Part shown: positions 15,560 to 34,154 of the stretch, piece after piece | Layout of the letters: every line of letters begins with the position of its first letter | Numbering within the stretch: the stretch's first letter is position 1 | Origin: an uncultured Myxococcales bacterium | GTDB lineage: Bacteria; Myxococcota_A; UBA9042 | Direction: 5' to 3' | NCBI GenBank assembly: GCA_903842345.1 | Contig: CAIMLR010000004.1 | Coordinates: forward strand, 186,001-250,000 | DNA length: 64,000 nucleotides | Notes under the pieces: generated by a model | Databases searched by the model: none | What the model saw: the letters and a program-made list of their open reading frames with translations, nothing else | Told to the model about the DNA's origin: nothing | Program-made: the position numbers and the translations under genes

Positions 15560-16050
15560 ATGGCCACCAACACCGCGCAGCGGATGGGCTTCTTTGAACG
15601 CTACCTTTCCGTGTGGGTGCTCGTGTGCATGGTGCTCGGCATCGCGCTGGGCATGGGCGCGCCGGATCTGGTCAAACGCGCAAGCCGTTCAGCATGGCGT
15701 TCCTCGGCTGGTTCTTCCTGCGCGTCGTATTCGCCTCGCTCGTTACGCCCGCGGACGCCAGCCAGTACACCGCCGGGCTCATCCTCCTCGCCGCCGCGCC
15801 GTGCACCGCGATGGTTTTTGTCTGGAGCCAGCTCACCGACGGCGATCCCGCCTACACGCTGGCGCAGGTCGCGCTCAACGACCTCATCCTGCTCGTCGTG
15901 TTCGCGCCGATCGTGATGCTGCTGCTCGGCATCGCGCACGTGGCGATTCCGGCGACGGTGCTCGTGACGTCCGTGGTCGTTTTCATCGCGGTGCCGCTGT
16001 CGGCGGGGTTCGCCTCGCGGTATTTTCTCATCAAGGCGCAAGGCGGTCCC
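15560..16050 (+). pseudogene. Acr3 arsenite permease, degenerate (internal deletion plus lost C-terminus)
   Basis: From ATG 15560 the reading is a good Acr3 N-terminus (MGFFERYLSVWVLVCMVLGI) for about 40 residues, to about 15678. From 15682, in another frame, it continues KPFSMAFLGWFFLRVVF and keeps the family Cys motif AAPCTAMVFVWSQLT. About 60 residues expected between these parts are missing. Similarity ends near 16050 (YFLIKAQ), so the last third, including the last membrane helices, is also gone. The frame then runs on into hsp20 by chance. The product cannot be a working ten-helix pump. Confidence 0.85.
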
Positions 16051-16260
16051 GGTCCGCGCAGTTTGCCACATCCGCTGGTGGAAATGTCCGCGGGTCATCC
16101 ATGGCTCGCGCCCGGCCACGCAGCCACGAGCGCGCCAACGCGTTGCACTCCAAAAGCATTGCAGATTGCCGCCGGACTTGGCACGCGCGTTGCTTCCTCC
16201 GATGGCAGCGTCGACGCACAAGACGAGTTTTGTTGGCCCCTATCCGCGGAGGTAATTCTC

Positions 16261-16746
16261 ATGAACTTGAGCACTTGGCGTTCGCCATCCAAGCCTCCCC
16301 GTCCTGACACCGAGTTCGGCGGGGAAATCGCGCCCATCGGCTACCTGCAGGACAACGTCAACCGCCTCTTTGGCCAATTTTTCCGGACTTGGCCGGACTC
16401 CGCGATTGCATCGCGGGACACGAGCGACCTCGCGTTTTCGCCGAGGATTGACGTGCGAGAGGATGACAAACACGTCGCGGTGACGTGTGACCTGCCCGGC
16501 CTGAGTGCCACGGATGTGGAAGTGACGGTCTCGCCAGGATCGCTGACGATTCGCGGCGAACGCAGGGACGAGTCGGATGGGACGGAAGCCGGCTACCACG
16601 TCGCTGAGCGGTCGTTTGGCGCCTTTGAGCGGTCGTTCGCCCTGCCCGATGGGATGGATACAGACAGAGCACACGCGTCGTTCAAGAACGGCTGCCTGTC
16701 TGTGGCCATTCCGAAAACGACTGCGACGCGCAAATCGGTGCGGTAG
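16261..16746 (+). CDS. Hsp20-family small heat shock protein
   Basis: Predicted protein of 161 residues. The alpha-crystallin domain spans about 58-155, with PRIDVREDDKHVAVTCDLPG, VSPGSLTIRGERR and ASFKNGCLSVAIPKT. Small heat shock proteins form oligomers that hold unfolding proteins. I place the start at 16261 because GGAGG lies upstream and the Hsp20 N-terminus begins there. The longer open frame to the left is the Acr3 remnant. Confidence 0.9.
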   Translation: MNLSTWRSPSKPPRPDTEFGGEIAPIGYLQDNVNRLFGQFFRTWPDSAIASRDTSDLAFSPRIDVREDDKHVAVTCDLPGLSATDVEVTVSPGSLTIRGERRDESDGTEAGYHVAERSFGAFERSFALPDGMDTDRAHASFKNGCLSVAIPKTTATRKSVR

Positions 16747-17149
16747 CTGGCGCTTACGCCCATCGCCCCAGCCATGACGGCCGTGACGGCACGTCGGCAC
16801 GCGGCGGTGTGGGCCTCGCGAGGTCCAATCCGGAAAGTGCTTGCCTGCGGCTGAGCCAATCGATCCACTGGTCACGCTCGCACGCCCCTCACGCGGCCCC
16901 ATCGTGATGCTCTCCCACTTCTGCCACGCACTGGGTCGGACTTCCGGCGGCCGATGTTTCTTGCTGCACGACGTCAGGCTGGGTCAGGGCGCCAATGTCA
17001 CTTTTTCGTCACAATGACGACCTGTGTTCAAAAAAAAACACCCATCAGACCACAAAACCAGCTTCGCGCTACACCTCGCCGACAACGCCAATCGCCTCCA
17101 GAAACAGCCGCGGTCCGCGCACGCGTGCTCGCGCGACGCAAATGAACTG

Positions 17150-17227: not shown

Positions 17228-20200
17228 ATGGAAATAGCACATTGCCGCGGCCGGCTCTGGCGCCGAAGTCTGTGGTTTGGCATCTGCTTGGCGTTGTTTC
17301 CTTGGACGGCGCACGCTGCCTGCACAGTCGCGGGCTTTGGCGACAACAGCACTGGCCAGACCACCGTGCCCAGCGGCCTCGGCGTCGTCAAGCAACTGGC
17401 CGTGGGCGATGCGTTCACGCTGGCCTTGAAAGTCGACGGCACGGTCGCGGCATGGGGCAGCGATGCCACCGGCGCCGTCACCGCGACCAACGGATTGACC
17501 AGCGTCCAAGCCGTCGCCGTCGGTCACGCCCACGCGCTCGTCGCCTTCCAGGATGGCACGGTCAAGGTCTATGGCGACACCTCGTTCGCCAACGCCAGCG
17601 TGCCCTTCAGCCTCTCGCAAGTCACTTCCGTCTCCGCCGGTTTGTCCTGTAGTTTCGCGATCAAACAAGACAACAGCATCTCCGCTTGGGGCGACAACAT
17701 CGCCGTCCCCGACATCGACCTGGCCAACAACCAGCAGAACTTCAAAGCCGTCGCCGCGCGCGGAAAGAACGTGTTCGGCTTGCGCAAGGACGGGACGGTC
17801 GCTGCCTTCTGCGGCAACGCCTCATGCGCGCCGCCCGCGGGCCTGAGCAACGTCATCCAGATCGCCGCCACCGAGACGGCGCGCATCGCGCTCAAGGACA
17901 ACGGCAGCGTCGTCGCGTGGGGCACCGGCAGCGCAGCCGTGGTTCCCGTCGGCCTGCAAGACGTCGTGTGGATTGCTGCCAGCGCCGACGTCGTCATGGC
18001 GGGCAAGTCGGACGGCACGGTCGTCGCGTGGGGCAACACCGCCAGCGTCACCGGCATGACCACGGCCGTCAGCGCCGCCAAGGACGTGTGGGTCGGCGGC
18101 TTGGGCAGCAACTTCGGGCTTTTGTACACCTGCGCGGCCGGCTGCGGCGACACCGGCCCGTTTGGCTGCTGCCAGAACGACATGCTGCAAATTTGCGACG
18201 ACGCCGGGCAGCTCAGTTATTCGTTCTGCAACACCAACACGTGCGGCTGGAACTACAGCAACGCCAACGCCTGCGACGCCAGCGGCCTCGGTTTCCCGGA
18301 GCTCGGCTTGCGCAAGGATTGCGCGCCCACCGGCTGCCTACCCAACTGCACCGGCTCAGTCTGCGGCGACGACGGCTGCGGCGGCTCCTGCGGCACTTGC
18401 CCCAGCGGCCAGTTCTGCAATGGCGGCAAGTGCCTTGGAAACTGCAGTTCACTCAACAACGACTGCCGCACCTGCATCTGCAACATCGACAACACCTGCT
18501 GCACGTCTGCCTGGGACACGCATTGCGACAACATGTGCGTTGGCAGCGGCTGCGACAGCGTGTGCGGCAGCGCGACGTGCACGCCGCAATGCAGCGGCAA
18601 GGCGTGCGGCAGCGACGGCTGCGGCGGCGCGTGCGGCACGTGCGGCGTGAACGAAACCTGCGATACCGGCACGTTCCAGTGCGTGTTCAACGGCGGCGGG
18701 GACATCGGCGATGCCGGCGGCGGCGTGGACGACACACTCAGCGACGCCAGCAGTTCCGACGCCGGCAGCTCCGGCACCGTCGCGACCTGCGGCGTGTACG
18801 GCTACGGCAGCAATTCGTCCGGCGAAACGACGATTCCCGCGGACATCGGGCAGGTCGTACAGCTCGCGTCGGCCAGCTACTTTAGCGTGGCCCTGCGCAG
18901 CGACGGCACGAGCAAGGCGTGGGGCGCCGTCCCGACCGACCTCCAGACCGCGCTGGCCAGCGGCATCCCCGGCGTCAAAGCCATCGCAGCGGGCGACCAA
19001 CACGTCGTGTTTGCCATGAGCGACGGCACGGTGAAGGCCTACGGCCTCGGCGCAGGCGGCGGCGCGACCATCGTGCCCAGCGGCCTGACCGGTGTGGTTG
19101 CCGTCGCGGCCGGCTATTCCAGCTCGTTTGCGCTCAAGTCCGACGGCAGCGTGGTCGCCTGGGGCACAAGCAGCGACGGCCTCGGCGCGGTGGAAGCAGC
19201 CAACGGCGCCACCGGCTTCACGATCATCGGCGCGCACAACGGCATGGCTGCGGGCATCAAGTCCGACGGCTCCGTCGTCGCGTTCACCAGCGATCCCGGT
19301 TACTTCGCGCCGAGCGGCCTGCAGGCCCAAGCCCTGGCCTTCGACGCGAGCTCGATGTACGCGCTCAAGTCCGACGGCACAGTCGCCGCCTGGGGCTCGA
19401 GCGGCGGCCTGCCCGTGATGCCGGTCAACTGGACGAACATCGTCGCCATTTCCGGCGGCAACGCCGGCCTCGCGGGCATCACCCCGGACGGCACGCTCAA
19501 AGGCCTCGACAGCGTGTTGAACGGCGCCGCGCCCACCGGCGTGTCCATGTTCGCGGTGGGCTGGCAGTTCCTCATCGCCGCGCAATGCCCCGCCAGCTGC
19601 GGCGCCATCGGCCCGACCGGGTGCTGCGACGGCGACAACGTCAAGACGTGCGACAGCTCCGGCGCGGTCAGCAGCAGCGCATGCGCAACCGGCTCCTGCG
19701 GCTGGTCCGCGAGCGGCTATGCGTGCAATACCACTGGACAAAGCGCCGCCAACAACGTCCCCCCACGCAAGTGCCCGGCCGCTTGCACGCCCAACTGCAC
19801 GGGCAAGAACTGCGGCTCGGACGGCTGCGGCGGCTCGTGCGGCGACTGCGCCCAGACGCAGGCGTGCGGCAGCGACGGCATGTGCAAGTGCGTCCCCAGC
19901 TGCAACGGCAAGACCTGCGGCTCGGACGGCTGCGGCGGCTCGTGTGGCTTGTGCCCCGGCGGCACCAGCTGCGACGCAACCACGCAACAGTGCAAGTGTA
20001 CGCCCAAGTGCGACGGCAAAAGCTGCGGCCCGGACGGCTGCGGCGGCACGTGCGGCACCTGCGCCACCGGCGCGAGCTGCGGCACCAACAACCAGTGCCA
20101 GAACATCTGCGTGCCCAGCTGCGCCGGCAAGACATGCGGTTCGGACGGCTGCGGCGGTTCATGCGGCTTCTGCGCCGCGTCCGATGGCCTGTTTTGCAGT

Positions 20201-23200
20201 TCGACCTTTGGCGAATGCCGTGACACCGGCTGCCCGAACGTTCCCTTGTTCGGCTGCTGCGACGGCGAAACGGCCAAGTACTGCGCGGCCGGCCACGTCG
20301 AGGTCACCAAGGATTGCCACGCCGCGGGGCTCTATTGCGGCTGGGCCTACAACCCGGATCCCTTTCACCCGGTGCTCGCTACCAGCGCCGCGTACATGTG
20401 CCAAAAGGGGCCGGGCAGCGTCGACAAATACGGCACGCCGCGCGCGTGTCCCGGCAGCGCCACGTGCGTGCCCAATTGCACCGGCAAAGGCTGCGGTTCG
20501 GACGGTTGCGGCGGCTCCTGCGGCACCTGCGCGGGGACCAAAAAGTGCGAGTTCAGCACGGGCCAGTGCAAGGACTCGGCATGCGCGAACGTCCCGTACG
20601 AGGGCTGCTGCAAGGACGGCACCGTCGTTTCCTGCAACCAGAGCAACGGCGCGATCACGTTCACGACCTGCAAGCCGCTCAACACGACGGGCGGCGAGGC
20701 GTGCCTCTGGAACGGCAGTTCCTTCCAATGCATGTCGCCAAACGTCGGCCTTTCCAAGCCGAACGGCATCGCGGGGATCTGCCCGGCTTCCGTCTGCATG
20801 CCCAACTGCAAAGGCAAGAACTGCGGCTCTGACGGCTGCGGCGGCTCCTGCGGCACCTGCAAGGGCAACGATACCTGCAACGCCGCGCTGGGCTACTGCC
20901 AAGGACCCTGCGTTCCCGTCTGCAACAAGCCGGACATCACGAGCTACGGCGGCACCTACCACTACTGCGGCTACGACGACGGCTGCGGCGGCACGTGCGG
21001 CTGCAAGGACGGCCAGTTCTGCAACGTCTACGGCTACGGCTCGATCAAGCCCGGCTACTGCCAAGCCGGTACGGACACCTGCAAGACCGCCGGCGTCACG
21101 ACCGCCAACTGCTGCATCAACGACAGCCAGCTGAAGTCCTGCAACGGCGGCCAAGTTCAGTCACAGAACTGCAAATACGGCTGTGGCTGGTCGCCCTATA
21201 GCAACGCGTACTATTGCCTGTACGACGCCCCCGGCCCTGGCGACGTCCTGACCGATCCCAGCGGCGCTCACCCGCTCGCATGCCCAGGCTCGATCGCCTG
21301 CGTGCCGCTCTGCAAGGACAAGCAGTGCGGCTCCGACGGCTGCGGCGGCACGTGCGGCTCCTGCGCCGACGGCCAAAAGTGCGACGGGGACGGCAAGTGC
21401 ATGGACAAGTGCGCGCACAACGTCGGCTTTGAGGGCTGCTGCAACGGCGACCAGCTGAAAATGTGCGGCAAGACCTCCTCCTACGATGCTGCCGACAAGA
21501 TCGGGCTCACCCAATGCGCGCCGGGCACCTGCGGCTGGAAATCGGCGGATGGCAAGTACGGCTGCAACTCGAGCGGCAGCGCGGATCCCAGCGGCAAGCA
21601 CGTCAAGGCGTGCGAGTGCGTGCCATCCTGCCTCCCGTACTACCAGACCTGCGGCTCGGACGGCTGCGGCGGCAGTTGCGGCTCGTGCCCCACGGGCAAA
21701 GTCTGTCACAGCTACGACTACTACGGCATCCCCAAGCAGGAATGCTGCTCGCCCAGCTGCAGCGGCAAGGTCTGCGGCGACGACGGCTGCGGCGGCAGCT
21801 GCGGCTCCTGCGGCACCGGCACGGCGTGCGACGGCAGCACCGGCAAGTGCGAGACCATCCCGCCGCCTCCGACCTGCCAGAACACCAAGTGGCAGGGCGC
21901 GTGCAATGGCGAAGTGCTGCAGTACTGCACCGGCACCCAAATCGTCACCCAGAACTGCGGCAGCAGCTTGCACTGCGGCTGGAACGCGGGCCTCGGCGCC
22001 TACTCGTGCGGCACGGCCGGCGGAGCGGATCCCAGCGGCCAGTTTCCCAAGGAAGCGGCCGGCACCAAGGCGCTCTGCATTCCGAATTGCACGGGGCGCG
22101 AATGCGGCTCCGACGGCTGCGGCGGCGCGTGCGGGTCGTACCAGTGCAAGGAGGACTACTACATTTGCAACAGCAAGGCCGGCAAGTGCGAAGTCGACTA
22201 CGACGGCGAATGGTGGTGGAGCAAGCACCCGTTACCCGCGTGCCCCGATGGCCAGGTCATCAACAAGGTCACCGGCGGGTGCAAATCGGACAACGGCGGG
22301 GCGTGCGGGGCCAACTCGGTTCACACCGGCAAGTTGTGCGGCAAACAGGACAGCGGCTGGACCTGCCAATGCGACCCGGACTGCACGACGCGGGGCGACT
22401 GCTGCTCGGACTACTACGCCTCGTGCCCGGCGGTGGCATTGGGCACGACCGCGTGCGGCGACAAGAGCTGCGACGCGAGCCAGGGCGAAACGTGCGCGGA
22501 TTGCCCTGCCGACTGCGGAACGTGCGCCTCGTTCAGCGGAACCTCGCCGCCGTGGCGCTCGCCGCTCAATGAAATCCTGACGTTGCCGGGGACGGCGGCG
22601 CAGAAGGAACAGACGGTGGCCTCCGGCCCGGAATCGCTGCTGCCGGCCGATTCGCCGTGGCCGCGTGCGGGGTTGCAGGCGTATCTGCCGCGCGACGGCG
22701 TCCTGTATGGCAGCCCGTACAACTTCGCCGCCGCGGGCAGCACGGGCACGTTCAGCTCGGTCGCCGGCGCCCAGGGGCAGGCGATCCGGTTCGGCAACGC
22801 CGGGATGACGGGGCCCTCGGACGGCACGGCGCGCATCAAGCTCTGGTCGGCGTTGCCGGCGATCGACAGCGCCGCGAACAAGACGCTCGGCGGGCTGACG
22901 CTGGCGATGTGGGTCCGGGTCCCGACCTCGGCGCCTGCCACCGTCAATCCGCTGGCCTCGCTCAAGGACATGGGCATGTCGGCGTACCAAAACGACAAGC
23001 CGATTTGCCTGGCGACGCGGCCGGGCGACACCACGCTCAAGATCACGTGCCCGAGCGAATATCCCACCATCACGCCGACCATCGGCAGCGTCTACGCGTG
23101 GTACGGCCCCACCTCCACGCCGCCCAACGCCGGCACTGTCAAGTGCGACGCCCTCGACAAAGCCGGCTTGAGCCCCACCTGCAGCGATCCGGGCATCCTG

Positions 23201-26200
23201 GCAGCGGTCGAAAAGGCCTGCCTCGGCAACTCCACTTGCACCGTGACCCTGACGCCACCGGCGTGCGCCACCGGAACCTCCATCGCCTTCGTGCGCGCGA
23301 TGTGCACGTACGGCAGCTCCATCGTCGGGCCGTCCATTGCGGTCGACAGCAGCGCCAACGGCAGCAAGCTGATGTTCGTGCAGGATCCGTCGGTGCCGCT
23401 CCAGAGCACGACCAGCATCAAGGACGGCTTGTGGCACCACGTGGCGGTGACCTTGCGGCCGCTGACGCCGGGCGGCCGACGCGGCATGACGCAGCTGTAC
23501 GTGGACGGTGAGCTGCAGGGCTCCAGCGACGCGCTGCTCTTTGGCCATTTTGACGAAGTCGTGCTGGGCGCGGGCAGTCTGCTCGGCACGGGCGCGACGC
23601 CGGCGGTGACCAAGACCTCGGGCGTGGGCGACTTGGACGAAGTGTTCGTCTACAACCGCGCGCTGAGCGATGCTGAGGTGCGCGCACTGAAGAACAAGCG
23701 CGATTTCGGGTTCTTGCGGCAATGGCCGGCCACTTCGGCCGAGCAGGTCGTGACGACGCGGCTGGGCATTGCTTCAGGTACGCCGTCGGTGACGGCGGTG
23801 ACCAACCCGGCGGTGGCGCTGCAAGAGGGCGCGTCCAAGCCGTTGACGGCCTCGTGGGCGGGCCTGACCGTGCAGAACGGCAACTACGCGCAGTTGCAGG
23901 CGGATTCCGACCTTGCGGCGATGTCGTCTTACACGCTGATGGGCTGGATCCGCGCGGACAACGTGGCGGCAGGCGGCACGCTGCTGCAGTTGACCAAGGG
24001 CACGACCGCGCAGGCGGCGCTGACTTTGACCAGCGATTGCGACGGCTTGGGCGTCAAGGGCACGGTCGGCAGCAACAGCACGCCGGTGTCCTCGTGCGAA
24101 CACGGGCTGCGGGCCAACACCTGGCAGTTCGTCGCGCTGGTGCAAAATGGCCCGACGCTGCAGGCGTACATCGACGGCGCGCTGGCGGGCACGCTGACCG
24201 CGACGACGACGCCGACGATCCTGAGCGGAACGGGCAATGTCGGGCTGCAGACGGGCACAGGCGTGACGCTCGGCTGGAGCGCGCTGGCGAACCGCGCGAT
24301 GCCCGTGGCGGAGCTGGAACAGTGGCGCAATCCTGGCCCGGCGGTCTGGATGGACGGCTTCCACTACGTCGACGGCGCCAAAGGCCGGATGCGCGACTAC
24401 GCCAACTTTGCCAACTTCTCCAGCAAGACCACCCAGGACGTCGTGGAGGTGTTCGACAACAAAGGTGCGAGCTGGCAGCCGACGGCGGGCGGCACGGCGC
24501 TCACGTTGTCGTCCAGCAACAGCACGTCGAGCGAAGTGCGGATCGCCGCGCGCGGGCGATTGCGGGCGTCGGGCGCCAACGGCCTCCGACCGTTCGCCTT
24601 CACCGGCCGGGTCACGTTCGGACCGGGATCCGTCGCCAACGTGCCGCTGGTGAGCAACGCCACCGGCGACGGGCAGACGAGCTGGACGCCGAGAATGAAC
24701 ACGACGCTGAAGTGCACGCGCAGCACCGACGCGCTGAGCTGCAATTTTGCCGGCAGCAGCCAACTCAGCGACGGGACCTGGAAACTGTGGACGACCGAGA
24801 CGCGCTCGGCTGCAGTCGGCAACGTCACCGTGCACGTCGATGTGGCTGTGTCCTTTGACGGCACGGACATGCACTTCGCGCTGTCGAGCCCGGATGCGAC
24901 GTTCGGCGCGGGAAGTGTCGGCGCGGCAGGTCCGGGCGGCGGCACTCCGGTCGGCTACGTGCTGACCACAACGCCCGCGACGGGAACCGCGCTGCCCAAA
25001 GAGACCGCGACGGCTGTGCCCAACGGCGCGTATTTCCGCATGACGCCGCCGGCATCGTTCACCGGTACGACGGCGCCTGCGTTTGCGCTGGCCAGGCTCT
25101 ATCCGCGGCCGCTGAGCAACACCGAGCTGGGCCAGCAGGTCCTGCGGGCGTGCACCGACCAACATTGCAGCGACATCAACCGCTCGTGTGTCGATGGCGG
25201 CCAATCGCTGCCCGTGTGCGGCAACTGCAAGGCGGGCTCGTTCGAGGTCAGCGGCACCCACGGCGGCCAGTGCTATGTGCGCAAGAACTACGGCGGCAAC
25301 TGCGCGGTCGACGCCGAGTGCGTCAGCGGCTTCTGCCAGAACGGCAGCTGCGGCGCCAAGGAACTCACCACGGACTGCACCGCGTTCTGCCACGGCAAGG
25401 GCCGCGAGTGCGTGATGGCATTCACCGGCTACAGCTTCAAGACCGCCATGTGCGCCAACGCGTGCTTGCCGTACTACACGCAGCCCGGCCTCGACCACTT
25501 TGATCCCGACGTCGACTGCATCTGGTCGCCGGACGCGGACGTGGGCGAAGTGTGCGCCGCCAACGACGAGTGCAAGTCCGGCAGCTGCTCGTCCGTTTCC
25601 GACTACGTCTACAACTTCACGGTCGATCGCAGCCCGGCGTGCAAGGCCGACGGCACGTGTCCGGGCTGGCAGAACACGTCCGACAACAACAAGCCGTTCA
25701 AGTGCGACAAGCGCTGGGACATGGACCTGGACCTCGCGAAGCAGTCCGTTTGCATGTGGGTGCCGACCGGCAATACGCAGATTTCGACCGTGCAGCGCTG
25801 CGATGCGACGTCGGCACAGGCGTGCGCGGACGTGCACCGAAAGGCCGTGCTCGCCAACAAGTCCGGTATCAACGGCACGCCGATGTACAAATGCGGCGAC
25901 TGCGATCCGACCACGTGGACCAACTCGTTGGACGGCAAGACGTATCCGCTGTGGGTCAAGCGCTGGCGGTTGCTCTCTCCAGAGGCGTGCCAGCTGATGC
26001 ACACCAACCTGGTGCGCGCGTTTGTCGCCGGAAAATACACGGAAATTCCGGGGTTCCTGTTCGAGAGCTTCAACGCGTCGACGCTCGGCCAGTTCATTCT
26101 GGAGAAGCCGCCCGGGTCGATCCTGACGCCCGCCGAGTTCGCCAAGCTCATCACCAAGGGCGTGGGTCCGGAGATGATCGACTACGTGCTGGACTCAGAC

Positions 26201-27499
26201 GTCCGCGCCACCTGGGACGCCAAGTATCCGGCCTTGCTGCTGGCCGACTGCGCCATGGATCCCGCCCAGCCCAAGGCGGCGCCGTTCAACAACAAGAACG
26301 ACAACTACCAGGTCTGCGCGCCCAACCAGTTCCCGGACGGCTCGCCGTGCCCGCCCGATGGCGTTGACGCATCGCTGGCCGACAGCTTCTGCCAGAGCGG
26401 CTTCTGCGCGCGCGACACGCACAAGTGCGAGGAGGGCTATGGCATCCTGGAAGACACGCAGTCCGCCAGCCGCAACGACCACAAGGCCTCGGAAGACGCG
26501 TCGGTGCCGCCGGTGCAGTTTGTCCAGCAGAATACGCCCACACTGCAGTTCAAGAAGGTCAAGAAGTCCACGATCGCGAACACGGCGATGCAGGAGCGCA
26601 ACTATTCGATGTCGCTGACCAATTCGAACACGCTCAGCTTCTTTGGTACCTCGATGGACGTCATGTCCATCTCCAACACGCTGTCCGGTGTGATGAATGG
26701 GCCGGACGAAGCCGTGAAGTTCAATTCCTCGGTTTCGATGTTTGGCATCAGTGTGGCCATGCCCGGGGAGCCGCCGCTCAAGTGTGCGGGCATGTCGTGG
26801 AAGGACGGCACGTTGGTGGAACCGCCGCCGCCGCACGCCGCATGCGACCGTGCCAAGCCGTCGGACATTTCCGTCGGGTTTCCGTCGCTGCACGTCTGCT
26901 CGCCTTCGCCCGGCGAGTGCCACGACGATCCGGCCAATTCGCCGTTCAACACGGTGCAAAAGGCCAAGGGGCCGCTGTGCATCAAGCGGTTTGTGTTCGT
27001 CGGGCCGGTGCCGGTATCGATTGAAGTGAGCCTGGTGATTGAAGCGTGCCTGGGCTACGGCACGGAAGTCGATCCGGATTCCCTGGAAGGCTCGTTTGCA
27101 ATCACGCCGGAAATCAACGTCGCCGTCGAGGCCAAAGGTGGCGTGGGCGGGGAAGTCGGCCCGGTGGAACTGTTCGCTGGCGTGAAGGCGGCCATCACCA
27201 TCCTGAACCTCACCTTCCCCATCAAGTGGGCGACGACCGTGACGCAGCTGCAGGATGACCAGAACAAGGACGTGGAGAATCTCTACAAGCTGGGCTACGC
27301 GCGGTCCATTTCGGCCGTCCTGAACACGCTGAAGTTGAGCCTCTCGGCGTTCGCGGAAGCGGCGGTGTCCGTGGTCAGCGTGGAGTGGGAATTCAGCCTC
27401 TTCGAGTACGAAGGCCTGACGTTCGAGTGGGAGTTGACGCCGCCCGACGAAATCTTCGCGAAGAAGGTCGACTTGCAGCACAAGACCGCGAATCAATAG
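17228..27499 (+). CDS. Giant secreted mosaic protein: RCC1, Cys-rich, LamG and SUEL-type lectin
   Basis: Predicted protein of 3423 residues. I chose the ATG at 17228 because a signal peptide (ICLALFPWTAHA) follows. Order: RCC1-type propeller (about 31-300, VAAWG blades); Cys-rich stretch; second RCC1-type propeller (about 520-785); a Cys-rich region to about 1760. In all, 13 copies of the CGSDGCGGSCGTC-type motif occur. Then a LamG-like domain (about 1810-2160) interrupted by a SUEL/rhamnose-binding-lectin-like insert (about 1930-2035), a second LamG-like domain (about 2180-2370), a further beta-rich segment, and Cys-rich modules (about 2640-3070). A beta-rich end domain starts near 3100. No transmembrane anchor or MYXO-CTERM tail is visible. 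It is probably a surface or matrix adhesin, first in a four-gene operon. Confidence 0.9.
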   Translation: MEIAHCRGRLWRRSLWFGICLALFPWTAHAACTVAGFGDNSTGQTTVPSGLGVVKQLAVGDAFTLALKVDGTVAAWGSDATGAVTATNGLTSVQAVAVGHAHALVAFQDGTVKVYGDTSFANASVPFSLSQVTSVSAGLSCSFAIKQDNSISAWGDNIAVPDIDLANNQQNFKAVAARGKNVFGLRKDGTVAAFCGNASCAPPAGLSNVIQIAATETARIALKDNGSVVAWGTGSAAVVPVGLQDVVWIAASADVVMAGKSDGTVVAWGNTASVTGMTTAVSAAKDVWVGGLGSNFGLLYTCAAGCGDTGPFGCCQNDMLQICDDAGQLSYSFCNTNTCGWNYSNANACDASGLGFPELGLRKDCAPTGCLPNCTGSVCGDDGCGGSCGTCPSGQFCNGGKCLGNCSSLNNDCRTCICNIDNTCCTSAWDTHCDNMCVGSGCDSVCGSATCTPQCSGKACGSDGCGGACGTCGVNETCDTGTFQCVFNGGGDIGDAGGGVDDTLSDASSSDAGSSGTVATCGVYGYGSNSSGETTIPADIGQVVQLASASYFSVALRSDGTSKAWGAVPTDLQTALASGIPGVKAIAAGDQHVVFAMSDGTVKAYGLGAGGGATIVPSGLTGVVAVAAGYSSSFALKSDGSVVAWGTSSDGLGAVEAANGATGFTIIGAHNGMAAGIKSDGSVVAFTSDPGYFAPSGLQAQALAFDASSMYALKSDGTVAAWGSSGGLPVMPVNWTNIVAISGGNAGLAGITPDGTLKGLDSVLNGAAPTGVSMFAVGWQFLIAAQCPASCGAIGPTGCCDGDNVKTCDSSGAVSSSACATGSCGWSASGYACNTTGQSAANNVPPRKCPAACTPNCTGKNCGSDGCGGSCGDCAQTQACGSDGMCKCVPSCNGKTCGSDGCGGSCGLCPGGTSCDATTQQCKCTPKCDGKSCGPDGCGGTCGTCATGASCGTNNQCQNICVPSCAGKTCGSDGCGGSCGFCAASDGLFCSSTFGECRDTGCPNVPLFGCCDGETAKYCAAGHVEVTKDCHAAGLYCGWAYNPDPFHPVLATSAAYMCQKGPGSVDKYGTPRACPGSATCVPNCTGKGCGSDGCGGSCGTCAGTKKCEFSTGQCKDSACANVPYEGCCKDGTVVSCNQSNGAITFTTCKPLNTTGGEACLWNGSSFQCMSPNVGLSKPNGIAGICPASVCMPNCKGKNCGSDGCGGSCGTCKGNDTCNAALGYCQGPCVPVCNKPDITSYGGTYHYCGYDDGCGGTCGCKDGQFCNVYGYGSIKPGYCQAGTDTCKTAGVTTANCCINDSQLKSCNGGQVQSQNCKYGCGWSPYSNAYYCLYDAPGPGDVLTDPSGAHPLACPGSIACVPLCKDKQCGSDGCGGTCGSCADGQKCDGDGKCMDKCAHNVGFEGCCNGDQLKMCGKTSSYDAADKIGLTQCAPGTCGWKSADGKYGCNSSGSADPSGKHVKACECVPSCLPYYQTCGSDGCGGSCGSCPTGKVCHSYDYYGIPKQECCSPSCSGKVCGDDGCGGSCGSCGTGTACDGSTGKCETIPPPPTCQNTKWQGACNGEVLQYCTGTQIVTQNCGSSLHCGWNAGLGAYSCGTAGGADPSGQFPKEAAGTKALCIPNCTGRECGSDGCGGACGSYQCKEDYYICNSKAGKCEVDYDGEWWWSKHPLPACPDGQVINKVTGGCKSDNGGACGANSVHTGKLCGKQDSGWTCQCDPDCTTRGDCCSDYYASCPAVALGTTACGDKSCDASQGETCADCPADCGTCASFSGTSPPWRSPLNEILTLPGTAAQKEQTVASGPESLLPADSPWPRAGLQAYLPRDGVLYGSPYNFAAAGSTGTFSSVAGAQGQAIRFGNAGMTGPSDGTARIKLWSALPAIDSAANKTLGGLTLAMWVRVPTSAPATVNPLASLKDMGMSAYQNDKPICLATRPGDTTLKITCPSEYPTITPTIGSVYAWYGPTSTPPNAGTVKCDALDKAGLSPTCSDPGILAAVEKACLGNSTCTVTLTPPACATGTSIAFVRAMCTYGSSIVGPSIAVDSSANGSKLMFVQDPSVPLQSTTSIKDGLWHHVAVTLRPLTPGGRRGMTQLYVDGELQGSSDALLFGHFDEVVLGAGSLLGTGATPAVTKTSGVGDLDEVFVYNRALSDAEVRALKNKRDFGFLRQWPATSAEQVVTTRLGIASGTPSVTAVTNPAVALQEGASKPLTASWAGLTVQNGNYAQLQADSDLAAMSSYTLMGWIRADNVAAGGTLLQLTKGTTAQAALTLTSDCDGLGVKGTVGSNSTPVSSCEHGLRANTWQFVALVQNGPTLQAYIDGALAGTLTATTTPTILSGTGNVGLQTGTGVTLGWSALANRAMPVAELEQWRNPGPAVWMDGFHYVDGAKGRMRDYANFANFSSKTTQDVVEVFDNKGASWQPTAGGTALTLSSSNSTSSEVRIAARGRLRASGANGLRPFAFTGRVTFGPGSVANVPLVSNATGDGQTSWTPRMNTTLKCTRSTDALSCNFAGSSQLSDGTWKLWTTETRSAAVGNVTVHVDVAVSFDGTDMHFALSSPDATFGAGSVGAAGPGGGTPVGYVLTTTPATGTALPKETATAVPNGAYFRMTPPASFTGTTAPAFALARLYPRPLSNTELGQQVLRACTDQHCSDINRSCVDGGQSLPVCGNCKAGSFEVSGTHGGQCYVRKNYGGNCAVDAECVSGFCQNGSCGAKELTTDCTAFCHGKGRECVMAFTGYSFKTAMCANACLPYYTQPGLDHFDPDVDCIWSPDADVGEVCAANDECKSGSCSSVSDYVYNFTVDRSPACKADGTCPGWQNTSDNNKPFKCDKRWDMDLDLAKQSVCMWVPTGNTQISTVQRCDATSAQACADVHRKAVLANKSGINGTPMYKCGDCDPTTWTNSLDGKTYPLWVKRWRLLSPEACQLMHTNLVRAFVAGKYTEIPGFLFESFNASTLGQFILEKPPGSILTPAEFAKLITKGVGPEMIDYVLDSDVRATWDAKYPALLLADCAMDPAQPKAAPFNNKNDNYQVCAPNQFPDGSPCPPDGVDASLADSFCQSGFCARDTHKCEEGYGILEDTQSASRNDHKASEDASVPPVQFVQQNTPTLQFKKVKKSTIANTAMQERNYSMSLTNSNTLSFFGTSMDVMSISNTLSGVMNGPDEAVKFNSSVSMFGISVAMPGEPPLKCAGMSWKDGTLVEPPPPHAACDRAKPSDISVGFPSLHVCSPSPGECHDDPANSPFNTVQKAKGPLCIKRFVFVGPVPVSIEVSLVIEACLGYGTEVDPDSLEGSFAITPEINVAVEAKGGVGGEVGPVELFAGVKAAITILNLTFPIKWATTVTQLQDDQNKDVENLYKLGYARSISAVLNTLKLSLSAFAEAAVSVVSVEWEFSLFEYEGLTFEWELTPPDEIFAKKVDLQHKTANQ

Positions 27500-27511
27500 G
27501 AGCACAGGACC

Positions 27512-29518
27512 ATGAATAGGCGCATTCTGGTGACGATGGCGGTGCTCGTGGGCGCGACGGCGGCGTTGTGGCTGTGGCAAGCGGAGTGGGCGGGACCGCC
27601 GCAGGTGACCGTGCAGGCGGCGACGCAGCGACCGGCGCAAGCGGCGATGGCACAGCCGGTGGAGCGATCGGCGACGGCGTTGCCGGGGCTCGCGGGCAGC
27701 TACGCGGTGCGGTACGTGGCGACGATGGAAGGCCTGTCGGCGAGCGCCGGCACGCGGCAGAAGATGGCGCTCACGCTGACCGGCGCGCTGGATGTCGCGG
27801 GGCTTGCGGCGCCTGGCAATGGCGAAAACGTCGCGTTCCGACTGCGCAATCCGGCGCTGACGGGCGATGACGGCATGCTGCAGGCGGCGAGCCTGACGCG
27901 CGAAACGGCGACGACGGCGCTGGGCAAAGCGTTCGTCGCGCAGGTCGACGGCGAGGGGCGGCTGGGTCAGGCGCGCTTTGAGGCGGACGTGCCGCCGGGC
28001 GTGCAGGCGCTGCTGCTCAACCTGATGCAACACGCGCAGCTGGTGCGGCCGGCCGCGCCCCAAGGATCGCAGTGGCAGGCGACGGAGCAGGACCTCAACC
28101 ACAGCTACACGGCGGAGTACACGCTCGCAGGGGCGCAGGTGCACAAGCACTGGCAGGAGCGCGGTGGCGACGAACTGCAGACGCTGCCACCGGGGTATCA
28201 GGCCACGCATGACGTGACGTTTGCGCTGGCGGATGCGCGGGTGGCGCAGGTCAAGGCGCACAGCGAAGGCAAGGCGGAGCTGGGCGGCGGCGCTCCGACA
28301 GCGCTGGTGTTCGCGATGGATCTGCAATGGGACCGGCAGCCGGACGTGGACGCGACGTGGGCCAAGAGCCTGCACCCGGACGCGCTGGTGGCCTTTGAGC
28401 GCGAGCGCGGCGTCAAGCCCCTGCGCCATGCGGATCCGCGCGAAGTGGAGACGATCCTGACAAGCGCGAACGCGGCGGCGACGGCGAAGGATTGGCAGAA
28501 GCGCCACCAGCTGGCGGCGGAGTTGGCGACCGCCATGGCCCGGAACGACGCGGCGACGGATCTGGCGGCCAAGCAGCTGCGCGAATCGACCAGCGAGCCG
28601 GTGCGGCGGACGGTGCTGGAAGCGATGGCGCAGGCCGAGTCGCCGGCGGCGCAGAAAGCGCTGGTGGGCGCGGCGGCGGATCCCAAGCTGGACGCGGAGA
28701 CGCGACGTCAGGCGCTGGTGGCAGGCGCCTTTGTGCAGCGGCCGCAGCCCGAGTACCTGGCGCAACTGGGCATGCTGGCCTACAGCTCGACCGACCACGA
28801 GTTTGGCGCGATGGCGGCGATGACGATGGCGCAGATGGTGCGGGTGGCGCTGGCGCAAGCGGCCGATGGCGGCACCGTGGTTGGAGGCGGATCGGCGCAG
28901 AAGCTGGCGCAGACGTTCACGGCGGAGGCGACGGCGCGGCTGGCGCCGCAGATCCCGCTGGCAGCGAGCACGGGCGCAACGACGCCGCCGGCTGTGCAGC
29001 TGCACGATGGCAAGGCCCGCTGGAACTGGGTGGCGGCGTTGGGCAACGCCGCGCTGCCGCAGACGCTGCCGCTGCTGCTGACGCTGCTGAAGGACCCCGG
29101 CGAGTTCACGCGGTCGGCGGCGGCGTATTCGCTGCGCTTTTTTGACCCGGCGCAGGTCGTGACCGCCCTGACCGGGACGATGGCGCAGGACGACTCGATC
29201 TACGTACGGGCGGCGGTGCTCCGGGCGTGTGCGTTCTTGGGCCCGGCGGCGACCCAGACGCTGGTGCACAAGGCGCTGCGCTACGACAAAAGCGAGATGG
29301 TGCGCGAGACGGCGGGTTACGTGGTCGCGGCCTGGATGCAGAAGACGCCGGATTTGAAGGACCTGCTGGATGACGCGATTGCCCATGAATCGTCGGCCAA
29401 AGTTGTCGATACGCTGAAGAATTTTGCTCAGCCCGGGCGTGTGGCGGCGCCGTTCCATCTGGTGTCCGGGACGCCTGAAACCGCGCCCGGCAGCCCTCGA
29501 ACCAAGGAGGCCCCGTGA
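27512..29518 (+). CDS. Secreted HEAT-repeat protein, vitellogenin N-terminal-like layout
   Basis: Predicted protein of 668 residues with a signal peptide or anchor (ILVTMAVLVGATAALWLW). Residues about 50-290 are beta-rich and amphipathic (YAVRYVATMEGLSASAG, KMALTLTGALDVAG, VAFRLRNPAL). Residues about 310-650 are helical repeats of HEAT type (AAYSLRFFDP, AAVLRACAFLG). A beta-barrel with a VxFRLxNP-like motif followed by an alpha-superhelix is the layout of the vitellogenin/large-lipid-transfer N-terminal module. That likeness is my reading of pattern only. It starts 12 bp after the giant gene and its stop overlaps the next start (GTGA), so it belongs to that operon. Confidence 0.8.
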   Translation: MNRRILVTMAVLVGATAALWLWQAEWAGPPQVTVQAATQRPAQAAMAQPVERSATALPGLAGSYAVRYVATMEGLSASAGTRQKMALTLTGALDVAGLAAPGNGENVAFRLRNPALTGDDGMLQAASLTRETATTALGKAFVAQVDGEGRLGQARFEADVPPGVQALLLNLMQHAQLVRPAAPQGSQWQATEQDLNHSYTAEYTLAGAQVHKHWQERGGDELQTLPPGYQATHDVTFALADARVAQVKAHSEGKAELGGGAPTALVFAMDLQWDRQPDVDATWAKSLHPDALVAFERERGVKPLRHADPREVETILTSANAAATAKDWQKRHQLAAELATAMARNDAATDLAAKQLRESTSEPVRRTVLEAMAQAESPAAQKALVGAAADPKLDAETRRQALVAGAFVQRPQPEYLAQLGMLAYSSTDHEFGAMAAMTMAQMVRVALAQAADGGTVVGGGSAQKLAQTFTAEATARLAPQIPLAASTGATTPPAVQLHDGKARWNWVAALGNAALPQTLPLLLTLLKDPGEFTRSAAAYSLRFFDPAQVVTALTGTMAQDDSIYVRAAVLRACAFLGPAATQTLVHKALRYDKSEMVRETAGYVVAAWMQKTPDLKDLLDDAIAHESSAKVVDTLKNFAQPGRVAAPFHLVSGTPETAPGSPRTKEAP

Positions 29519-31713
29519 ATCGGCAGGCCCTGACTTTCCTCCTGCTGCTCGCGGCGCTCCTGGCCGGCTGCGGCACGACGACCACGTGCGGCGACGGCAC
29601 AGTCAACGTCGGCGGCAGCTGCGTGCCCGATCCGAATGCGCTCAACTGCGGCGACGGCACATCGCTGGCCGATGGCCAATGCGTGACGGTGGACGCAGGT
29701 CCGATCGACTCCGCCGGCACGGATGCGACAGGAACCGATGCGACGGCTGAAATCGATGCGGCAGCGGATGCGACAGAAGGCACGGACGTCGCGGGCGATG
29801 GGACGCCTGACGCGTGCCAGCCCAACTGCATCGGCCGGACGTGCGGCGACGACGGCTGCGGTGGCGCGTGCGGCGCGTGCGGCGACCCGGCCAAGCCCGT
29901 TTGCGACGCGCTTTTGGGCCAATGCAAGTCCGGCTGCGTCCCGCAATGCAAAGGCAAGAACTGCGGCGACGACAAGTGCGGCGGAACGTGCGGCGCGTGC
30001 CAGGGCAGCGACGTCTGCTCCAGCGCCGGCGTGTGCGTGCCGCCCGCGTGGACCTGCGACAAAACTGCGTACGGCGAGGGCTTTTCATGTGACTGCAACT
30101 GCGGCGCGCCCGACCCGGACTGCCAGAACGCCAAGCTGCCGCTGTGGGGCTGCGGCGACAAGGAAACGTGCGACAGCAGCGGCAAGTGCGTCTCCGGCGT
30201 GCCAGCCGCGTGGACCTGTGCGCCGGTCAGCTACGCCGGCGTGGATTTCTGCGACTGCAACTGCGGCGCGCCCGATCCCGACTGCGCCTTTGGCCTGCCC
30301 GTCCACGGCTGCAAGTCCGCCGCCGCCACCTGCGACGCCAGCGGCAAGTGCTCGGAATGCGTGGCGAACTGCACCGGCAAGGCGTGCGGCGACGACGGCT
30401 GCGGCGGCTTCTGCGGCTACTGCACGGACAGCGTGAAGACGACGTGCAACGCCAGTGGCGAATGCGTCGACCCGTGCGCGGGGCCCAAGCCGCTTGCCTG
30501 CGCTGCAGCGACCTGCGGCAACGACGGCTGCGGCGGCACCTGCGGCACCTGCGCCAGCGACAGCCAGTGCGTCAGCGGCCAATGCCAGAAGACGGGCAGC
30601 CTGGACTCCTGCGTCGGCCACTGCGGCTCGACCGCGCCCTCGGGCTGCTACTGCACCAAAGGCTGCGCGGCGAACGGCAACTGCTGCACCGACTACGCCG
30701 CCACCTGCACCTGCAAGCCCAACTGCACCGGCAAGAACTGCGGCGACGACGGCTGCGGCGGCTCGTGCGGCACCTGCAGCGGCCCCACGCCGTATTGCGG
30801 CGCCAACAGCCAATGCACCGCGACGTGCGCGCCCCAATGCACCGGCAAGACCTGCGGCGACGACGGCTGCGGCAGCACGTGCGGAACCTGCGCGAGCGGC
30901 GCGTCGTGCGCGTACACCAGCCAGTGCGTCCCCGACGCATGGAAATGCGATCTCAGCTACTTTGGCGACAAGGGCGCGTGCGACTGCGGCTGCGGCGCGA
31001 TTGACCCGGACTGCGCCAGCGGCAAGCTGGGCGTCGACGGCTGCCCTGGCAGCGACACCTGCACGGCCAGCGGATTTTGCGCCGCGACGTTCTGCAGCAC
31101 GGACGGCGACTGCAGCGGCAAGTGGTGCACCGGCGCGTGGCCCAAGTCCGCCGGCGTCTACGGCGGCGTGTGCGGCGACTTGTTCCCCAGCGGCGGCGCG
31201 GCCGGAACGCCGTGTATGATCGCCGAGGAATGCGGCTGGGGCCTGTGCCTGAAGGAGGCCTGCCGCACGCATTGCAGCACCGACGGCCAGTGCGGCGCGG
31301 GCTGGCTGTGCGAAGGCTTGCCGGTCGTGAACGCGGCGACGGGCTCGACCTGGGGCTTTGCCGGCGCCTGCGTCCAGCCCTACGGCAGCGCCAAGGCGTG
31401 CACCAAACAGGCGGACTGCAGCGCGGCGGGTGAGACGTGCGTCGCGCGCGTCGATCCGGCAACGCTGGGCCCGCGCTACGTCTGCGAAGCCGTGCCCGCC
31501 TCGCCCGCCGCCGGAGCCAGCTGCGCGGTTTCTGCCTGCCCCGACTGGCAAATCTGCATCGACACGCCCAAGGGCATGAAGTGCGCCCTGCCTTGCCCCG
31601 GCGGCGTCGTCGACTGCCCAAGCGGCTGGACGTGCGTGGCCAAGCCACTGAACAATGCCGGAACGCCCGATCCCTCTGACGACCCGAAGGTGCCGACATG
31701 CCAGCCCAACTGA
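29515..31713 (+). CDS. Cys-rich surface lipoprotein
   Basis: Predicted protein of 732 residues from a GTG start with a strong AAGGAGG site. Lipobox LLAGC (Cys19). A D/A/T-rich linker (about 60-100) leads into a Cys-rich body with six CGDDGCGG-type motifs like those in the giant protein. Between them lie modules such as FSCDCNCGAPDPDC and a somatomedin-B-like patch (CYCTKGCAANGNCC). The C-terminal ~250 residues have spaced Cys pairs (CSTDGDCSGKWC, CKQADCSAAGETC). It is probably a disulfide-stabilised surface partner of the giant protein. Confidence 0.85.
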   Translation: MNRQALTFLLLLAALLAGCGTTTTCGDGTVNVGGSCVPDPNALNCGDGTSLADGQCVTVDAGPIDSAGTDATGTDATAEIDAAADATEGTDVAGDGTPDACQPNCIGRTCGDDGCGGACGACGDPAKPVCDALLGQCKSGCVPQCKGKNCGDDKCGGTCGACQGSDVCSSAGVCVPPAWTCDKTAYGEGFSCDCNCGAPDPDCQNAKLPLWGCGDKETCDSSGKCVSGVPAAWTCAPVSYAGVDFCDCNCGAPDPDCAFGLPVHGCKSAAATCDASGKCSECVANCTGKACGDDGCGGFCGYCTDSVKTTCNASGECVDPCAGPKPLACAAATCGNDGCGGTCGTCASDSQCVSGQCQKTGSLDSCVGHCGSTAPSGCYCTKGCAANGNCCTDYAATCTCKPNCTGKNCGDDGCGGSCGTCSGPTPYCGANSQCTATCAPQCTGKTCGDDGCGSTCGTCASGASCAYTSQCVPDAWKCDLSYFGDKGACDCGCGAIDPDCASGKLGVDGCPGSDTCTASGFCAATFCSTDGDCSGKWCTGAWPKSAGVYGGVCGDLFPSGGAAGTPCMIAEECGWGLCLKEACRTHCSTDGQCGAGWLCEGLPVVNAATGSTWGFAGACVQPYGSAKACTKQADCSAAGETCVARVDPATLGPRYVCEAVPASPAAGASCAVSACPDWQICIDTPKGMKCALPCPGGVVDCPSGWTCVAKPLNNAGTPDPSDDPKVPTCQPN

Positions 31714-31721
31714 ACCCTGCG

Positions 31722-34154
31722 ATGACTTGGGCGCGCGCGTTTGCGTGCCTGTGCGTGCTTGTGGGCGCCTCGGCCTGCGGCAGCTCCGGGCCCGCGTGCG
31801 CGAGCGGAACCCACGTGTCCGGAAACGCGTGCGTGGCGGACGGTCCTGCCCCTGTTTGCGGCGCCGGCACGGTGCAAGAAGGCAGCGTATGCGTGCCCGT
31901 CGACGGCGGCAGCACCGCAGATGCGACTGGCGACGCTTCCGGTACCGACGATGCACAGGCCGACACCGGCGCGACAGACATTGATACTGCTGCGGATTTG
32001 CCGGATTCGGCCACCAGCTGCCTGACGCCCTGCGCCAAAGGCTACGTGTGCAGCGCGCTGGGGACGTGCGAGCCCGACCAGGTCACCGTGACGTGGACCT
32101 GCCTGCCGGTGGCCAAGGGCGACGGCGCGACGTGCGACTGCAACTGCGGCGAGCCCGATCCAGACTGCGCCGACGCCAGCCTGCCTGTGGCCGGCTGCGG
32201 CTTGGGCGGCGCCTGCAAAGCCGATGGCACCTGCGCAACCTGCGTGGCGTCCTGCAGCGGCAAGCAGTGCGGCTCGGACGGCTGTGGCGGCTCGTGCGGC
32301 ACCTGCCTGGACCCGACCAAGCTGTACTGCAGCAAGACCGGCCAGTGCATCGCAGCGTGCCTGCCCGCGTGCAGCGGCCTCGATTGCGGCGACGACGGCT
32401 GCGGCGGATCGTGCGGCGCGTGCACGGGCAGCAAGCTCTGCCAGTCGGGCCATTGCACCGCGCTCCCGCCGGAGCTCTCGTGCGTCAACCAGTGCGGCGG
32501 CCTGGCCACCGGCGGCTGTTCTTGCGAAAAAGGCTGCAAAAACGCGGGGACGTGCTGCGGCGATGTCGATTTCGCCTGCGCCTGCCTGCCCGACTGCAGC
32601 GGCAAACAGTGCGGTTCGGACGGCTGCGGCGGCTTCTGCGGCGACTGCGCCGAGGGCCTGTACTGCGACGTCGGCCAGTGCGCCGTCGACCTGTGCCATC
32701 CCGATCCGTGCGCCGGCAACGGCAGCTGCAGCCAGGTCGACGGCAGCTGCACGTGCGACAGCAAGTTCACCGGCAAGCAGTGCAACGCCTGCGCCGCGGG
32801 ACTGGTCGACTACCCCAAGTGCACGCCCGATCAATGCGCCGGAAAAACTGGGACTTGCAGCGGCCACGGCGCCTGCCAAGCCATCGACGGCAGCTGCGTG
32901 TGCGACACTGGCTTTGCCGGTGCGAGCTGCGGCGCGTGCGTGCTCGCCGGCGCCACCTGGCCCGCGTGCACCGACCCGTGCGCGGGCAAGGTCTGCACCG
33001 ACGACAACCCGTGCACCAACGACACCTGCGACGCCACCGGCGCGTGCAAATTCATCGCCAACAGCCTGCCGTGCGACGACGGCGACCCTTGCACGCAAAA
33101 CGACACCTGCAGCACCGGCGGCTGCTACGGAACCGTCAGCTGCACCATCGCGGTCAACAGCAGCGACGACGTCGACGACGGCACCTGCGACGGCAGCCAC
33201 TGCAGCTTGCGCGAGGCCATCCTCCTGGCCAACTCCAACCTTGACGCGAGCAGCATCGGCTTTACCAAGGATCTGACCATCACACCGGCGAGCGCATTGC
33301 CGACCATCAAGGCGCCGGTGAGCATCGTCGGCAACGGCCATGCGGTGATCCTGGACGGCGGCGGCGCGCAGATCCTGCTGGCCCAGAACGCCGGCTTGAC
33401 GCTGCGCAACCTGACCGTGCGCAAAGGTTCGGCGGCGCAGGGCGGCGCGGTGCAGGTGACGGGCGGCCAGTTCACGGCGCAGCGCGTGCGGTTCTTGGAC
33501 AATGCCAGCAGCAAGGACGGAGGCGCGGTCTACGTCGACGGTCCCGCCGACGTCAGCGAGTGCCACTTCCAGGGCAACACCGCCACGGGCAAAGGCGGCG
33601 CAATCGACCTCGCCGCAGGCAACACGCTCACCGTCAACCGCAGCAGCTTCGACGGCAACAGCGCCGGCTCGGGCGGGGCCATCGCGACGGGCGGCACGCT
33701 CAACGTGGTCAACAGCTCGTTCATCAAGAACAGCGCCAGTAGCAGCGGCGGCGCCATTGTTGCCCAAGAGGCCACGATCCTGCAGTGCAGCCTGTGGAGC
33801 GACAGCCCCGTCGCAGTCCCGGACGTCGCCGTGCCCACGCTTCACCTCGGCAACAGCGTCATCGCCGGCCTCGCCAGCCTCGGCAACTTGTGCAGCGCGA
33901 GCACCGTCGACGCCATCGGCACGTGGATCGCGGACGGCAGCTGCAGCGCCAACTTGAGCGGCGTCGTCACCGGACTGTCGGTCGTCAACACGACTTTTGG
34001 CGAAATCCTCAGCGTGGCCAGCGGCTCCGGCTTGATTGACGCCGGCAACATCGGCGCGTGCGGCACCAGCAGCGTCGCGGGCGTGGACCAGATTCAGACG
34101 CCGCGGCCGCAAGGCATGGCGTGCGACATCGGGGCGATGGAAGTCCTGCCGTAG
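31722..34154 (+). CDS. Cys-rich lipoprotein with right-handed beta-helix
   Basis: Predicted protein of 810 residues from ATG 31722, which gives a good signal peptide with lipobox GASAC (Cys19). An ATG at 31698, overlapping the previous gene, would add eight residues. After the D/A/T linker come three CG(S/D)DGCGG motifs and EGF-like segments (CAGNGSCSQVDGSC, CSGHGACQAIDGSC). The second half starts with HCSLREAILLANSN and runs as a parallel beta-helix (NLTVRKGSAAQGGAVQ, GGAIDLAAGNTL, GGAIATGGTLNVVNSSF). It ends with IDAGN and a choice-of-anchor-Q-like tail. Last gene of the operon. It is likely a surface adhesin or carbohydrate-binding protein. Confidence 0.85.
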   Translation: MTWARAFACLCVLVGASACGSSGPACASGTHVSGNACVADGPAPVCGAGTVQEGSVCVPVDGGSTADATGDASGTDDAQADTGATDIDTAADLPDSATSCLTPCAKGYVCSALGTCEPDQVTVTWTCLPVAKGDGATCDCNCGEPDPDCADASLPVAGCGLGGACKADGTCATCVASCSGKQCGSDGCGGSCGTCLDPTKLYCSKTGQCIAACLPACSGLDCGDDGCGGSCGACTGSKLCQSGHCTALPPELSCVNQCGGLATGGCSCEKGCKNAGTCCGDVDFACACLPDCSGKQCGSDGCGGFCGDCAEGLYCDVGQCAVDLCHPDPCAGNGSCSQVDGSCTCDSKFTGKQCNACAAGLVDYPKCTPDQCAGKTGTCSGHGACQAIDGSCVCDTGFAGASCGACVLAGATWPACTDPCAGKVCTDDNPCTNDTCDATGACKFIANSLPCDDGDPCTQNDTCSTGGCYGTVSCTIAVNSSDDVDDGTCDGSHCSLREAILLANSNLDASSIGFTKDLTITPASALPTIKAPVSIVGNGHAVILDGGGAQILLAQNAGLTLRNLTVRKGSAAQGGAVQVTGGQFTAQRVRFLDNASSKDGGAVYVDGPADVSECHFQGNTATGKGGAIDLAAGNTLTVNRSSFDGNSAGSGGAIATGGTLNVVNSSFIKNSASSSGGAIVAQEATILQCSLWSDSPVAVPDVAVPTLHLGNSVIAGLASLGNLCSASTVDAIGTWIADGSCSANLSGVVTGLSVVNTTFGEILSVASGSGLIDAGNIGACGTSSVAGVDQIQTPRPQGMACDIGAMEVLP

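Follow-up and report, generated by a model that had tools for sequence, protein, structure and literature searches.

A probable bacterial relative of the animal large lipid transfer module, encoded beside a giant secreted protein with a beta-rich tail

The window analyzed here, 64,000 nucleotides of DNA from an uncultured Myxococcales bacterium, holds a run of four coupled genes on the forward strand. They encode a giant secreted, Cys-rich protein (17228–27499), a protein resembling the large lipid transfer (LLT) module of large lipid transfer proteins (LLTPs) (27512–29518), and two Cys-rich, lipoprotein-like products (29515–31713 and 31698–34154). The open frame at 27512–29518, proposed in an earlier sequence-only reading of this DNA, was confirmed and specifies a product of 668 amino acids. 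That reading also held the gene to be translationally coupled to its neighbors, and the spacing bears this out. The stop codon of the giant gene ends at 27499 and the ATG of the LLT-module gene lies at 27512, with AGGA directly 5’ of it; the LLT-module stop codon and the GTG of the next gene share 4 nucleotides; and the last two genes overlap by 16 nucleotides.

The first of the two downstream products carries a lipobox (LLAGC). Within the window’s own family, the module is usually followed by a Cys-rich gene that has CGxDxCGG repeats; no Cys-rich ORF was seen after the module in a distant minimal pair (L099). The second downstream product, characterized from its open frame and Pfam matches, combines chlamydial PMP-type repeats with EGF-like repeats. 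Lipid-transport or lipid-storage genes were not recognized among the neighboring genes scanned. A single open frame at 15613–16746 strongly matches an HSP20 domain as well as part of the profile for a sodium/bile-acid symporter (SBF), and is possibly a true fusion or two genes read together.

The giant gene upstream of the module encodes about 3,400 residues. Its likely start is the ATG at 17228, with the frame open back to a GTG at 17024, and the product begins with a signal peptide of the cleavable type (17228–17320, MEIAHCRGRLWRRSLWFGICLALFPWTAHAA; cleavage judged by eye). Pfam matches identify RCC1 repeats, a somatomedin B domain and two laminin-G-like domains, followed by a conserved beta-rich C-terminus; the protein also contains 248 cysteines and 11 CGxDGCGGxCGxC repeats. 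Such a mixture draws on domains usually found in eukaryotic extracellular proteins. The C-terminal beta core, about 165 amino acids long (26978–27472), was modeled with AlphaFold (AF2) as long antiparallel strands of up to 33 residues, with an overall pLDDT of 68. Two of these strands are clearly amphipathic as judged by hydropathy alternation.

An AlphaFold model of the LLT-module protein itself was built with 25 relatives (mean pLDDT 81.6, pTM 0.54). In this model, a hydrophobic N-terminal helix (residues 3–26, 27518–27589) and a disordered linker (residues 27–56, 27590–27679; pLDDT < 50) lead into a beta-barrel-like domain, which we term the N-sheet, with strands within residues 62–276 (27695–28339). 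A central helix of this domain (residues 162–174, 27995–28033) aligns with the NI.RGIL..Q helix of lipovitellin, and the motif that follows it, W...E.D..G...A.Y (residues 187–203), aligns with lipovitellin E.G.EG.C.T.Y; short helices are also predicted between the strands. The remainder of the chain forms a HEAT-like superhelix of 18 predicted helices (residues 312–639, 28445–29428), and the protein matches the Pfam family HEAT_2 at E 9e-17. The layout anticipated by the sequence-only reading, a hydrophobic N-terminus, a beta-rich domain and then helical HEAT-like repeats, is borne out. The peptide VAFRLRNPAL, which had been likened to a vitellogenin strand, does fall on a real predicted strand (residues 105–118), but its ‘NP’ is confined to this protein and its nearest relative and is therefore poor evidence for an LLTP relation. 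It was dropped as an LLTP motif, being unconserved across the bacterial family.

When the model was compared with the PDB using Foldseek, the first 11 matches were all LLTPs (MTP, apoB, lipovitellin and bee vitellogenin), with E-values from 6.4e-16 to 1.1e-7 and alignments mostly of 613–754 columns. The apoB beta-barrel entry 9bd8 was among them (E 1.1e-7), and the first generic HEAT protein followed after these 11 at E 5.7e-6. The predicted N-terminal fold is thus LLTP-like, and the protein is not simply a HEAT-repeat protein or one with an unrelated extra domain. Whole-chain TM-scores were modest (0.44–0.48 for MTP, lipovitellin and bee vitellogenin; 0.28–0.30 for apoB), which we attribute to how the two domains are oriented in the chain and to the curvature of the superhelix. 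A search of a viral structure library gave no significant match.

Sequence profiles were also used to assess homology. The Vitellogenin_N profile (PF01347) scored 15.5 bits against the LLT-module protein, below its cut-off of 24, with residues 352–545 aligned to profile positions 344–527. Several relatives scored above the cut-off, at 26–46 bits, and the best score (69.9 bits, E 2.2e-19) came from L099, which belongs to a more remote branch of the phylum. The best-scoring stretches all lie within the helical part. HEAT repeats cross-match this family: two control genomes were positive and one HEAT-only protein scored at E 0.004. For this reason PF01347 matches alone are insufficient, and they were rejected as stand-alone proof.

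Profile-profile comparisons were made between 42 bacterial sequences and three animal LLTPs (lamprey lipovitellin, apoB and MTP), the animal letters being taken from PDB matches. The full comparison gave a score of 88.4 (E 6.1e-10) over 497 collinear columns, as against 12.7 for a reversed template, at most 17.3 for column shuffles and at most 30.6 for block shuffles. The helical part alone scored 57.2 (E 1.5e-7). The N-domain alone scored 42.5 (E 9.1e-5), with block shuffles reaching at most 29.0; here the bacterial pattern PF....D..GRV...RF.......LL......Q......W...E.D..G...A.Y aligns with the animal PvrfdysaGrI..iy......vNIvRGILNlfQl......f.l.EtgveGicqttY. An earlier run with two animal and 25 bacterial sequences had detected the helical part only (E 2.6e-5). 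A HMMER search of PDB sequences with the bacterial N-domain profile found no match even at E 10, and we ascribe this to the weakness of single-sided profiles, since both profile-profile comparison and fold search detect the relation.

Calibration in the same set-up gave E 4.5e-5 for lipovitellin against MTP and 0.016 for apoB against MTP, while the bacterial family matched lipovitellin alone at E 9.1e-9 and MTP alone at E 3.3e-6. By this yardstick, which sets a deep bacterial profile against single animal sequences, the bacterial proteins appear as near to the LLTPs as the LLTPs are to each other. The N-sheet-then-superhelix order suggested by the sequence-only reading is therefore supported by fold search, by Pfam matches in relatives and by profile-profile comparison, and the bacterial module is very probably homologous to the animal LLT module. 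Of the two outcomes that the sequence-only reading had named as counting against it, an unrelated predicted N-terminal fold and profile searches with no LLTP match, neither was observed.

The module does not amount to a full LLTP. Its ORF stops about 30 residues past the superhelix and leaves no room for the A and C sheets of the lipid cavity. The disulfide cysteines of the LLT N-sheet are missing as well; the protein has one cysteine, which lies outside the N-domain, and several relatives are Cys-free. Because both the cavity sheets and the N-sheet cysteines are lacking, we class it as an LLT-module homologue. The role of an envelope or extracellular lipid carrier, which had been suggested for it, may still apply in some form. 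However, apoB truncated close to where its LLT region ends is reported, in work summarized in PMC1783640, to bear almost no lipid, and the bare module is accordingly unlikely to be a carrier alone and would need a beta partner.

The earlier description of the beta-rich domain as secreted needs correcting. The hydrophobic N-terminus is real and is common to the relatives, which show basic residues, a hydrophobic helix and then a low-complexity linker. A cleaved and released form is less well supported, since no obvious signal-peptidase (AxA) site was found by eye in the module relatives; one exception among them, L042, carries a lipobox. Judged from these N-terminal sequences, the helix is a probable uncleaved signal anchor, and the protein looks periplasmic and anchored rather than released.

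Among 284 genomes of the phylum, 38 carry a match to the N-domain profile; these belong to 14 families, some within the window’s class and some beyond it. N-domain identities to the LLT-module protein range from 15 to 81%, and one of the relatives comes from an uncultured Myxococcales MAG. In a tree, the three animal sequences group together with a support of 0.99. Their placement next to L100, a fragment, is distrusted. The wide range of identities, the spread over 14 families and the separate animal clade do not fit a recent transfer from animals. Full-text searches of open-licence papers turned up no previous description of an LLT module in bacteria, which is not proof of absence.

The module does not travel alone. 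Immediately upstream of module relatives, the final 576 residues of the giant protein are conserved. In 39 of 41 LLT-module loci a neighboring ORF carries the partner beta core at its C-terminal end or close to it; this ORF lies upstream on the same strand in 36 loci, downstream in two and on the opposite strand in one. Of these 39 loci, 12 had not contributed to the beta-core model. The genome studied here has one module gene and one partner gene, side by side. Distances among modules and among tails are strongly correlated (r 0.89; Mantel test, 0 of 2000 permutations). Where a genome holds paralogous pairs, module and tail have diverged to similar extents, with identities of, for example, 38 and 40% or 30 and 34%.

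The remainder of the partner is far less constant. In L099 it consists almost only of a signal peptide and the beta domain. The homologue at L056:11853–14219 (reverse strand), which lies on the strand opposite its module, carries a C-type lectin domain and a Dictyostelium-type Cys repeat. This front is unlike the RCC1/laminin-G-like front in the window, which indicates that the fronts are exchangeable. The only module loci with no recognizable partner beta domain nearby are L105:4357–8391 and L112:4072–6081 (both reverse strand), and these have either a diverged partner or a module working without one. Overall, the module and the beta-tail gene almost certainly form an obligate pair. Conserved pairing and co-divergence are the strongest functional clue available, and they suggest that the module works with the partner’s beta tail.

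The partner beta domain may supply the cavity sheets that the module lacks. Profile-profile comparison of the tail with LLTP lipid sheets gave no signal, and the control of lipovitellin against MTP also fails there. The partner C-terminus, considered as an LLTP A-sheet (DUF1943), had no Pfam match and no PDB sequence match.

Taken together, these data lead us to a working model that we hold to be somewhat more probable than improbable: an anchored, MTP-like module, obligate with the partner’s beta tail, that docks on the tail and encloses or loads lipid during export. In this model, the N-terminal anchor would sit in the inner membrane and hold the module in the periplasm, where it would be one half of a pair with the amphipathic beta-rich C-terminus of the upstream giant protein. 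The module would dock on that tail during export, much as MTP does on nascent apoB, and lipid would be enclosed or loaded by the two together. The partner’s large, variable front portion would then be carried or displayed. Lipid handling by the module is proposed by analogy with the LLTPs, and we consider it slightly favored on balance.

The main rival retains the pairing and dispenses with the lipid. Here the module would be a dedicated periplasmic chaperone escorting an outer-membrane beta-barrel or surface anchor of the partner, so that the front is displayed without lipid cargo. The make-up of the partners, with a signal peptide of the cleavable type, a front that varies and resembles adhesins (RCC1, laminin G, C-type lectin) and an unvarying beta tail, would suit such a role, and several distant partners have a Phe at the C-terminal end, whereas partners of the window’s own family have no terminal aromatic residue. 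The fold search with the tail model bears on the same question. Foldseek returned nothing significant; in the list of weak matches porins came first by E-value (1.4e-3), but their probabilities of 0.1–0.25 were below those of MTP, which came next (E 0.011) with the highest probability among these matches (0.41–0.44). Lipovitellin appeared lower down the same list. The very long strands predicted for the tail also argue against a barrel anchor, and we regard the chaperone reading as rather unlikely, while still the principal competitor.

A free-standing intermembrane lipid shuttle, with the neighboring gene merely co-expressed, would account for an LLTP N-sheet and superhelix joined to a membrane anchor. 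This is improbable given that the module has no cavity sheets and that the tail is kept beside it phylum-wide, despite unrelated fronts, and co-diverges with it. That the module is an ordinary HEAT scaffold joined to an unrelated beta domain, its LLTP likeness being convergent, is very improbable: the cross-matching of PF01347 by HEAT proteins would allow it, but the N-domain alone matches LLTP N-sheets with a score far exceeding those of shuffled and reversed controls, and only LLTPs head the fold search.

LLTPs, which assemble yolk, LDL and insect lipophorin, are generally presented as a superfamily of animal proteins (e.g., PMC1783640). The present results suggest that the animal lipid machinery of yolk and blood-fat proteins has bacterial relatives. 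More tentatively, and with the odds somewhat against it, myxobacteria may possess an ancient split LLT machinery, in which an MTP-like anchored module and a lipid-holding beta domain in the next gene load lipid onto giant surface proteins and display them, with animal LLTPs derived from the bacterial system or sharing an ancestor with it. The presence of the module in 14 families of one phylum, with a diversity (15–82% identity) too great for a recent transfer from animals, opens the origin of the LLTP machinery to testing. The finding further points to a two-gene envelope system, hitherto undescribed, in which the beta tail stays constant, an LLT module serves as its dedicated partner and the surface fronts can be exchanged.

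The nearest known systems compare with the module as follows. Bacterial HEAT proteins (YibA, phycobilin lyases and the alphaRep designs) share with it the HEAT_2 repeats (residues 499–603 of the module), but have no N-terminal barrel and no paired beta partner, and their fold match is weaker. Lipovitellin and vitellogenin (1lsh, 9enr, 9ens) align with the LLT module over 440 columns (E 9e-9; fold match to 1lsh, 3.4e-11), and the lipovitellin N-sheet shares with it the helix and the E.....G...Y motif. Vitellogenin differs from the bacterial module in that a single chain also contains the lipid cavity and additional domains, and in being a cargo protein that is released. ApoB-100 (9bd1, 9ea7, 9bd8) matches in both its N-terminal beta-barrel and its helical module (E 1.6e-11; barrel entry, 1.1e-7); beyond these parts apoB extends as a long belt of amphipathic beta structure, whereas in the bacteria the amphipathic beta structure, if equivalent, lies in a separate gene. 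The best fold match is the MTP large subunit (6i7s, 8eoj; E 6.4e-16 over 646 columns), which has an N-sheet with a central helix and then a HEAT superhelix in the same order. MTP itself supplies the A and C sheets of its lipid cavity and has PDI as its partner in the ER, whereas the bacterial module stops past the superhelix, has a predicted membrane anchor and lacks conserved cysteines. MTP acts on a separate beta-rich secreted protein, apoB, and the same is proposed here for the bacterial module.
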